In this document: one piece after another, positions 28,436 through 46,261 of the stretch
Position numbering within the stretch: position 1 is the first letter of the stretch
Layout: each line of letters begins with the position of its first letter
From: Longibaculum muris
Lineage (GTDB): Bacteria; Bacillota_I; Bacilli_A; Erysipelotrichales; Coprobacillaceae
Reading direction: 5' to 3'
Assembly: GCF_004343035.1 (NCBI RefSeq)
Contig: NZ_SMCQ01000017.1
Location: 1-62,709, forward strand
DNA: 62,709 bases
The notes under the pieces: generated by a model
Told to the model about the DNA's origin: nothing
The model's input: only the letters and a program-made list of their open reading frames with translations
The model's database searches: none
Made by a program: the position numbers and the translations under genes

Positions 28436-28655
28436 AAAAAAACGTCCTTATATAAAAGGACGTAAATATACGCGGTACCACCTTTTTTACACCAAAGTGT
28501 CTCTCAAAACTTTAACGCAGTTAACGTTTATCCCTAACTATTCGAGATAACAGCTCCCAGACCATCTTCATAAAAGTTATGTACTGATTTACACCATCCA
28601 TCAGCTCTCTTTAACGCCCTTTTAATCTTTTCTGTTCTTCGCTTTTTTCTACCAT
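28436..28655 (-). ncRNA. T-box leader (Met-specific) of metG
   Basis: On the minus strand a Stem I with AGAGAGCTGATGG is followed by an ATG specifier triplet at 28571-28569 in TTTTATGAAGATGG. Further on comes the T-box core GGTGGTACCGCG (about 28471-28482). The bulge residues TGGT are complementary to ACCA, the acceptor end of tRNA-Met with an A discriminator. A terminator hairpin follows (ACGTCCTT with AAGGACGT at 28442-28463, seven T). Uncharged tRNA-Met should stabilise the antiterminator and switch metG on. Confidence 0.95.
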
Positions 28656-44266: not shown

Positions 44267-44953
44267 TTATTCTGCTTCTATAGCAATAAGAATACTAGAT
44301 AAAGTCACAAAGACTAGTGTTTGAATACATCCTGCAAAGACATCAAAATAAGCATGTAATACAGGAGCTAAGATAGGTCCTAAAAAGTTAACTGGTAAAA
44401 TCATTCCAGATAGCCATCCAGTAAACTGATAGACCAATCCCATTAAAATTGTTCCACTTAATATATTACCAAATAAACGCATTGATAATGATATTAATGG
44501 TGATATTGCACTTAAGATATTGGTTGGTGGCCACACCAATTCTTTAATATAGGTTAAACCACCTTTTTTCTTAAAGGCATTATACTGAATTAAAATAAAG
44601 GTAATTAATGTCATTGCTAGAGTAATTGAATAGTTTGATGTTGGTGCATCAAATCCAATTAATCCACTTAAGTTAGCAACAATTAAATACACAAATAACA
44701 TTGCAAAGTAAGGATAATAGCTCTTTTCAAATTGAGAAGGCATAATTGATTTCATATAATTATAAACCATCTCAACTCCTGTCTCACATACTAAAACAAT
44801 CCCCTTTGGTTTTTCTAATGGATCAGCCGCCATGACTTTCTTTCCTGCATAGATAAAAAACAAACATAGCGCAGTTATAATAATCAAAGAAAAAACCAAT
44901 TCAACTTGTAATTCTATATGTATGCCAGATAGGAACGTTGAACTAATTTTCAT
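44267..44953 (-). CDS. atpB: ATP synthase Fo subunit a
   Basis: 228 residues, five or six membrane helices. SLSMRLFGNILSGTILMGL contains the essential Arg that faces the c ring, and the final helix is ETLVFVTLSSILIAIEAE-like (SILIAIEAE at the C terminus). It forms the ion half-channels with the c ring. GGAGG precedes the ATG. Confidence 0.97.
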   Translation of the reverse strand: MKISSTFLSGIHIELQVELVFSLIIITALCLFFIYAGKKVMAADPLEKPKGIVLVCETGVEMVYNYMKSIMPSQFEKSYYPYFAMLFVYLIVANLSGLIGFDAPTSNYSITLAMTLITFILIQYNAFKKKGGLTYIKELVWPPTNILSAISPLISLSMRLFGNILSGTILMGLVYQFTGWLSGMILPVNFLGPILAPVLHAYFDVFAGCIQTLVFVTLSSILIAIEAE

Positions 44954-45314
44954 TTATCTCACCTCCTTTATGAATAAATCCTTCTATATAAATTGTTATT
45001 TTTATGACAAGATAGCCTAAAAACACACCAAAAATATGTATAAAATCCATCTTAACAGCAATAAAGAAACCTAAAGCATAAAATAATAATTTTAAAATAA
45101 ACATAATTGCTATAATTGCTGTAGACATTGAAAACTTTAATATTCCTTCACTCATCTTTATATTCATTAAAAAGATGATGATATTTATAATATACCCCAA
45201 AATAAAACCAAATATATAAGATATATCTTGTAAACATAAACTCATTATCAATATGATTAAAGAAGCAATGAAAAAAACATGGACTGATCTTTTTAAAACT
45301 GTTTTTTCATTCAT
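44943..45314 (-). CDS. atpI: AtpI-like ATP synthase protein I
   Basis: About 123 residues, four membrane helices, matching the weakly conserved AtpI family (ATP synthase I, assembly factor for the c ring). It overlaps atpB by 11 nt. The ATG at 45314 has AGGAG 9 nt upstream; the TTG at 45323 lies within that site. It overlaps the end of atpZ by 8 nt. Confidence 0.85.
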   Translation of the reverse strand: MNEKTVLKRSVHVFFIASLIILIMSLCLQDISYIFGFILGYIINIIIFLMNIKMSEGILKFSMSTAIIAIMFILKLLFYALGFFIAVKMDFIHIFGVFLGYLVIKITIYIEGFIHKGGEINEN

Positions 45315-45495
45315 GTTTTCCAACTCCTAACAATAATTTAATAACATATATAAATGATAACAACAAACATATCAATAAAGCTATTGGCTGACTATCAAAA
45401 TACTCATCTATTTTTAAACCAACCCATAAACAAAAGAGAAAAACTCCAATCACTTTTAATCCTAATTCTAAAGCAAATACCAAGTCTTTTAACAT
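45307..45495 (-). CDS. atpZ: AtpZ-type small membrane protein
   Basis: 62 residues, two membrane helices joined by the GLKIDEYFDSQPIA loop, typical of AtpZ (first gene of many Firmicute atp operons; linked with AtpI to Mg2+ supply and c-ring assembly). There is no Shine-Dalgarno sequence in the 12 nt ahead of its ATG, which is preceded by a T-run. Its start overlaps the stop of a 23-codon leader ORF by 7 nt, so it should depend on translational coupling. Confidence 0.85.
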   Translation of the reverse strand: MLKDLVFALELGLKVIGVFLFCLWVGLKIDEYFDSQPIALLICLLLSFIYVIKLLLGVGKHE

Positions 45496-45560
45496 AACAA
45501 AAAAAGAGTTATATGAAAAAGATATCTTCTATTGAGAATATTGATGTCTTGATCATTCAT
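45489..45560 (-). CDS. 23-residue leader peptide of the atp operon
   Basis: An unannotated ORF of 23 codons (MNDQDINILNRR...LFLLC) with AAGGAG 8 nt upstream. It ends inside the atpZ start (ATGTTAA overlap). Its start codon lies in the 5' arm and its end behind the 3' arm of a terminator-like hairpin, so translation of the ORF would both open the hairpin and deliver ribosomes to atpZ. The peptide itself shows no run of a regulatory codon. The function is inferred from layout. Confidence 0.6.
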   Translation of the reverse strand: MNDQDINILNRRYLFHITLFLLC

Positions 45561-45567
45561 ATAACTC
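45499..45567 (-). promoter_or_regulatory. Attenuator-like hairpin before atpZ
   Basis: On the minus strand GAGTTATATGAA (45556-45567) pairs perfectly with TTCATATAACTC (45506-45517), and seven T follow (45499-45505). Inside, AAGACATC can pair with GATATCTT. The structure is a long terminator-type stem located after the promoter and before the first structural gene. Confidence 0.65.
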
Positions 45568-45595
45568 ACTCCTTTATCAATAGTATTACATTACG

Positions 45596-45624
45596 ATTAT
45601 ACCGTTATTTATCTTTTATAGCAA
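45596..45624 (-). promoter_or_regulatory. Promoter of the atp operon
   Basis: On the minus strand TTGCTA (45619-45624), 17-bp spacer, perfect TATAAT (45596-45601). Transcription would start about 30 nt before the leader peptide. Confidence 0.8.
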
Positions 45625-45634
45625 TATGAAAACA

Positions 45635-46261
45635 TTAATCATCAGTACCAAATAAACGATCACCAGCATCTCCCAAACCAGGAACAATATAGCCTTTTTC
45701 ATTGAGCTTCTCATCTAAAGCTGCAACAATCAAATCTACATCTGGATGATTCTTTTCAATCATCTCAATTCCTTCAGGAGCAGCCACAAGACATGCCAAT
45801 TTAATGTATTTAGCACCACGTTTTTTAATATTTTGAAGGGCAGCACATGCACTACCACCAGTTGCTAACATTGGATCAACAACAATCACATCGGCTTCAT
45901 CTAAGCAAGCTGGAAATTTTGCATAATATTCTTCTGGTTCTAATGTTTCTTCATTACGAGCCATTCCAATATGTCCAACTTTTGCTGTTGGAATAATTGT
46001 TTTAAAACCTTCAACTAACCCTAAACCTGCTCTTAAGATAGGAACTAAAATAATAGGTCTAACTAATTGTTTTCCTGTCATTGGACAAATTGGTGTAACA
46101 ATTTCAATGTTTTTTAATGGTAATCCTTTTGTAACTTCATATGCCATTAACATTGCTATTTCGTCTAAGTTTTGTCTAAACTCTTTTGTTCCAGTTTCTT
46201 TATTTCGCATAATTGTTAATTTATGCTCAATTAAAGGATGATTTAATATTGTTGTTGCCAT
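45635..46261 (-). CDS. upp: Uracil phosphoribosyltransferase
   Basis: 208 residues, usual length. The PRPP-binding motif [16 protein letters not shown] and the C-terminal uracil-binding [13 protein letters not shown] are complete. It salvages uracil to UMP. The spacing to glyA (14 nt) and order tsaC-rpiB-glyA-upp-atp are conserved in Firmicutes. Confidence 0.98.

Follow-up and report, generated by a model that had tools for sequence, protein, structure and literature searches.

A conserved hairpin over the first start codon of the atp operon in Longibaculum muris and related gut Firmicutes, probably a brake on ATP synthase production

The atp operon of Longibaculum muris begins with a conserved hairpin, a cis-acting RNA at the operon head that is shared by one branch of its family, a Coprobacillaceae-like group of gut Firmicutes. 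Judged from sequence and predicted folding, this hairpin is probably a built-in brake on ATP synthase production. According to the reading we prefer, to which we assign a probability of about 0.5, it blocks ribosomes at the start codon it encloses and can also terminate transcription, and translation of the first ORF, whose ribosomes pass on to atpZ, would open it.

Discussions of ATP-synthase operons usually centre on promoter strength and on translational coupling within the operon. If the preferred reading is true, a conserved hairpin governing entry to the whole atp operon would mean that a central enzyme of common gut Firmicutes is under a new layer of regulation. A preliminary description of the locus had proposed a leader ORF within an attenuator as a gate not known to it from described atp operons, and in the literature searched no description was found that joins an atp operon with a leader peptide or with attenuation.

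Results

Locus layout

The window, meaning the whole stretch of DNA analyzed (62,709 nt), contains the following features at the head of the atp operon of L. muris.

45635..46261, minus strand: upp, the gene upstream of the atp operon
45596..45624, minus strand: promoter-like site TTGCTA-17-TATAAT of the atp operon, 10 of 12 matches, 3' of the upp stop
45569..45575, minus strand: Shine-Dalgarno sequence (SD) AAAGGAG of the leader ORF, predicted to back-pair with the U-tract in the folded RNA
45556..45567, minus strand: hairpin 5' arm GAGTTATATGAA, holding the leader start codon (45560-45558)
45518..45555, minus strand: hairpin loop, 38 nt
45506..45517, minus strand: hairpin 3' arm TTCATATAACTC
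45499..45505, minus strand: T7 tract, a possible intrinsic-terminator tail, predicted to pair with the SD through A-U and G-U pairs
45489..45560, minus strand: leader ORF of 23 codons, MNDQDINILNRRYLFHITLFLLC, from the ATG at 45560 to a TAA ending at 45489, similar to the atpI 5' end of relatives without atpZ
45307..45495, minus strand: atpZ (PF09527, E 1.8e-7), without an SD
44943..45314, minus strand: atpI, a weak PF03899 match, with its ATG at 45314 read from the sequence
after atpI, to 38718, minus strand: atpB-E-F-H-A-G-D-C

All sequence statements of the preliminary description proved correct, namely a promoter upstream of the leader, a strong ribosome site in front of the 23-codon ORF, arms perfectly complementary over 12 bp and followed by seven T, the leader ATG embedded in the 5' arm, and a 7-nt overlap between the leader stop and the start of atpZ, which has no SD.

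Folding of the hairpin

On this strand the window contains a single 12-bp repeat with at least six T among the eight bases that follow, the expected count in first-order Markov sequences being about 0.03 per strand. The fold energy of a 91-nt segment over the hairpin (z -2.7 to -3.0) would rank second against 43 other SD-bearing gene starts of the window. A 121-nt segment, which was used first, gave only z -2.0, and folding energy alone is therefore insufficient to settle the hairpin. The stem is rich in A and U with three G-C pairs, and the loop is long.

The helix is longer than 12 bp, a point absent from the preliminary description, as the U-tract can back-pair with the SD and consequently SD and AUG would be concealed jointly. 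For L. muris the predicted probability that the SD-AUG region is unpaired amounts to 0.47 before the 3' arm is made and to 0.07 in the full RNA. Pairing of SD and start codon in the full RNA, in a structure kept in eight genomes, is what a sequestering hairpin should display.

Distribution among relatives

The region 5' of atpB was read in all 43 genomes of the family, which include no second genome of the genus Longibaculum; Candidatus Stoquefichus is one of the named close relatives. Eight of the 43 carry the element at the first atp gene: L. muris (G000), G006, G014 and five species that belong to a single genus (G017, G025, G030, G034 and G060). It precedes atpZ in L. muris and G006; the other six carriers possess no atpZ and their hairpin covers the start of atpI itself. 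There the SD and the start codon keep their register relative to the 5' arm, and the 3' arm falls about 19 codons downstream within atpI. In the five species of one genus (L072, L073, L074, L075, L105) the GTG of atpI overlaps an ATG-TGA pair in the 5' arm, and this start-stop pair reads AATGTGAATG or TATGTGAATG.

In all eight carriers SD and start are enclosed by the same predicted hairpin (z -1.9 to -6.9), and no such fold was found at the 14 first atp genes of family members lacking the element (z above -1.9). A covariance model of all eight gave strong matches to those eight only (E 1.7e-6 or better), and the exact pattern of L. muris and G006 was present in 2 of 315 genomes of the order. 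Beyond the family no carriers were detected among the 315 genomes of the order or in a 395-genome draw from the class, the latter searched with a leave-one-out model and a stricter filter that missed G006 too. The genome of L. muris holds no other copy, L128 being an unrelated ORF with a similar SD. The element appears dispensable, because it is absent from the close relatives G021 and G005.

Selection on the helix

At fourfold sites of atpB, L. muris and G006 are identical in 45% (35/77), whereas the two 23-nt halves of the element are identical at 20/23 and 19/23 positions (P 5e-5 and 3e-4). The loop measures 38 nt in L. muris, 24 nt in G006, where its sequence has changed freely, and 39-40 nt in the remaining carriers. 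Standard pairs occupy 91.4% of the cells, a share that falls to 46-63% if the partner is displaced by 1-3 columns; the counts were taken from a loop-trimmed alignment, since another alignment shifted the 3' arm of G006 by three columns. Double changes occurred at two pairs (C-G to U-A and A-U to U-A), accompanied by several G-U intermediates, and the observed covariation values were reached by 14-33 of 500 shuffles, a moderate excess. Mismatches comprise one G-G in G006 and two in G030. The pairing of U-tract and SD is kept in all eight genomes and is lengthened by a U-A pair in three of them, the tract itself being interrupted or short in G006 (T5) and G030.

Part of this conservation can be attributed to protein coding, because six of the eight elements overlap atpI codons. 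Altogether the comparisons offer good evidence that the RNA structure is under selection, for which the covariation by itself would be weak support. Stem covariation in relatives, as envisaged in the preliminary description, thus exists at two pairs and is modest, with unpaired cells in G006 and G030.

Origin of the leader ORF

A model made from the six atpI-type genomes alone finds the leader of L. muris with 45.3 bits, and in this leave-one-out setting the match has an E of 5e-8 in 95 kb and of 1.7e-6 genome-wide; within the window the next match, a weak one of 23.1 bits, was the window's own atpI start. Compared purely by sequence, the leader ranked first among the 102 SD-plus-start sites of the window with every one of the four relatives tested (27.5 with G014, the next site scoring 13). 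Its peptide resembles AtpI N-termini in a start-anchored comparison (P 0.0002 to 0.005 for the relatives), and the spacing from TATAAT to GGAG is 23 nt in L. muris as well as in G014. Because of this homology to atpI starts and the shared spacing, we read the leader as the probable remnant of an atpI 5' end. Events may also have run the other way, with the leader fused to atpI upon loss of atpZ. A relay ORF derived from the decayed start of a gene would provide a simple, testable case of a leader ORF arising from a broken gene.

The leader of G006 has a loop shorter by 14 nt and is read in another frame, with a different peptide, but it retains the same arms, the U-tract and a stop adjoining atpZ. 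No peptide conservation was found between L. muris and G006, the two being completely different, and neither runs of codons for one amino acid nor a conserved stalling peptide were found in the leader. A dedicated leader peptide is not supported, as the peptide of G006 differs completely while the arms are kept and as the hairpin of six relatives sits on the start of atpI. Hence, of the conserved ORF and stem that had been envisaged for relatives, the stem is present in eight genomes and the ORF from the 5' arm through the 3' arm is open in all carriers except G034, and it is the peptide that is unconserved. The interruption in G034 is an apparent one-base frameshift and may be an assembly error. 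In the same genome (L105; atpB pieces C1:1063572-1064221) apparent frameshifts in atpI and atpB lie at or near homopolymers and are probably assembly errors.

A tree of Upp places L. muris, G021, G005, the five-species genus and G014 close together with their order unresolved, and in a midpoint-rooted tree of AtpB the carriers fall into two separate groups. A single origin followed by losses in G021 and G005 is the simplest reading; the element may also have been transferred between lineages.

Predicted coupling of leader and atpZ

Both genomes with leader and atpZ, L. muris and G006, have an SD-less atpZ whose start lies near or within the leader stop; in G006 this stop lies 1 nt before the atpZ ATG. 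Leader-to-atpZ coupling is well supported by this sequence arrangement, which is usual for coupled genes. In the same two genomes a short SD-bearing ORF, as expected of an attenuator, is situated upstream of the structural genes, and its translation is predicted. The gate of the preliminary description thus persists in part: the hairpin is real and selectively kept and the coupling to an SD-less atpZ recurs in G006, whereas the dedicated leader peptide is not supported.

Other arrangements in front of atpZ were seen in relatives without the element. In G021 (L063) a small hairpin, TTGCGTAAAACGCAA, followed by a pyrimidine-rich stretch lies between upp and an SD-less atpZ. The SD-less atpZ of G005, G011, G023 and G029 (L064, L078-L080) starts within a few nt of the upp stop or overlaps it, and it is therefore seemingly fed by upp translation.

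Discussion

Proposed mechanism

In the preferred reading the nascent RNA would fold such that the 5' strand of the helix contains the SD and start codon belonging to the first ORF and the U-tract closes the 3' strand. An unattended hairpin would bar ribosome entry and could terminate transcription at about 45505-45499, so that atp expression is held down. A ribosome initiating on the first ORF would cover the 5' arm and then translate the 3' arm, keeping the hairpin open, and in L. muris the ribosomes of the relic ORF would re-initiate on the SD-less atpZ at the overlapping stop. Termination, opening by translation and re-initiation on atpZ are steps that we infer.

These steps differ in strength. 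Hiding of the SD is well supported by the predicted folds, and its support is at least equal to that for attenuation. Terminator action is plausible: the terminator score is positive in six of eight genomes, and in G014, G025 and G060 only if the extra U-A pair is counted in the stem; the A+U-rich stem and the long loop speak against it. As no conserved competing (antiterminator) helix appeared in MFE or consensus folds, opening would have to be direct. In E. coli, ribosomes have little repressive effect on terminators situated less than 100 bp into an ORF, except where RNA polymerase pauses (PMC4824070), and the polymerase of B. subtilis outruns ribosomes (PMC9226507). On these grounds ribosomes may come too late in Firmicutes, and it is doubtful that translation would open the hairpin in time.

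A further-reaching idea is that of a feedback, in which ribosome loading, reflecting the translation or energy state, sets the level of ATP synthase through combined termination and start-site hiding, the relay ORF loads atpZ, and the circuit was kept while atpI was fragmented into the 23-codon relay ORF. We regard this as speculative and improbable.

Alternative explanations

The main rival is SD hiding without termination, or with inefficient termination. In its strict form the hairpin would be solely a translational repressor hiding SD and AUG of the first ORF, with the U-tract as mere partner of the SD, which we consider possible, if rather unlikely. It accounts well for the nearly complete pairing of the SD-AUG region in the full RNA, for the U-tract/SD pairing retained in every carrier and its lengthening in three, and for the imperfect U-tracts of G006 and G030. 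However, an anti-SD sequence under selection is expected to use C somewhere, and the partner of the SD consists of U in all eight genomes (GGAG facing UUUU, with G-U pairs), even where the frame differs. Moreover, T7 was retained in L. muris despite a reading frame that differs from that of the atpI versions. These two observations favour a terminator tail over a plain anti-SD.

Less probable still is a hairpin that serves mainly as the terminator of the upstream glyA-upp unit, its overlap with the atp head being incidental and the small ORF without regulatory role. The element follows upp in seven of eight genomes (the contig of G006 ends before the upp position), and no second terminator-like site was found between upp and the hairpin or elsewhere in the upp-atpZ interval. 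Yet the hairpin lies 3' of the atp promoter and must act on the transcripts of that operon as well, the register of SD and start codon within its arm is the same in all eight carriers, and in G005 upp passes straight into atpZ without any terminator.

It is very improbable that the repeat arose by chance in AT-rich DNA and is functionless, as might be suggested by the weak z of the 121-nt segment and the three G-C pairs of the stem; its rarity under the Markov expectation, its retention in eight genomes and absence elsewhere, and arms kept well above the neutral identity of 45% argue against it. It can hardly be believed that AtpZ truly begins with the leader and that slippage on T7 links this to the annotated frame: T7 does lie in the overlap, where a one-base slip would join the frames, and some relatives have N-terminally extended AtpZ, but the closest AtpZ proteins start at the annotated Met, the leader is unlike the extensions of other AtpZ, and a frameshift fusion was rejected on account of the offset of +1 instead of +2 and the T5 tract in G006.

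Two DNA-level candidates were also considered. A DNA operator for a paired protein is unlikely, since the arm spacing differs between L. muris and G006 by 14 bp, which is not a whole helical turn; an invertible segment between the repeats is not favoured either, the promoter lying outside and the middle part of G006 looking unlike the reverse complement.

Relation to known systems

Ribosome-controlled attenuation, SD-hiding hairpins and stop/start coupling are all known; the variant and its place at the head of the atp operon appear new within the literature searched. In the pyrBI attenuator of E. coli the terminator lies within a leader ORF and is relieved by the translating ribosome, a UTP-sensitive pause allowing ribosomes to catch up. 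The element of L. muris resembles it in having a terminator-like hairpin inside a short ORF, where translation through the hairpin would prevent termination. It differs in that no signal for such a pause was identified, that the 5' arm includes the start codon, and that the leader would feed the next gene by stop/start overlap.

In the mgtCBR leader of Salmonella, mgtM responds to cytoplasmic ATP (PMC3641672). Like mgtM/mgtP, the element combines a short leader ORF with stem-loop structure in front of an operon linked to ATP; unlike them, it is a single short hairpin, neither a second competing structure nor a sign of ATP sensing was identified, and a sequence relation is not expected. For the atp operon of E. 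coli, translational coupling and mRNA structure were described at atpHA (Hellmuth 1991; Rex 1994; both as cited in PMC12548453). As far as that citing account goes, mRNA structure gates ribosome entry there as well and is opened by upstream translation, but it lies between internal genes, while the present hairpin is found at the head of the operon, where it encloses the first start codon and has a U-tract at its end. The uORF attenuators of Firmicutes resistance genes, vmlR and bmrCD, rely on antibiotic-stalled ribosomes and a separate antiterminator (PMC9226507, PMC4191407). They share with the element a small ORF and a putative intrinsic terminator upstream of the regulated genes; neither dependence on antibiotic stalling nor a separate antiterminator was seen in L. 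muris.

Other structured RNA in the window

The hairpin matches no Rfam family, its best score being 18.7 bits where the threshold is 70. The strongest fold of all scanned gene starts of the window (z -3.2) was that of a LysR-type regulator gene (25825, minus strand). A T-box leader (RF00230, 128 bits) was recognized at 28453-28648 on the minus strand, just 5' of a methionyl-tRNA synthetase-like gene (28415-26493).
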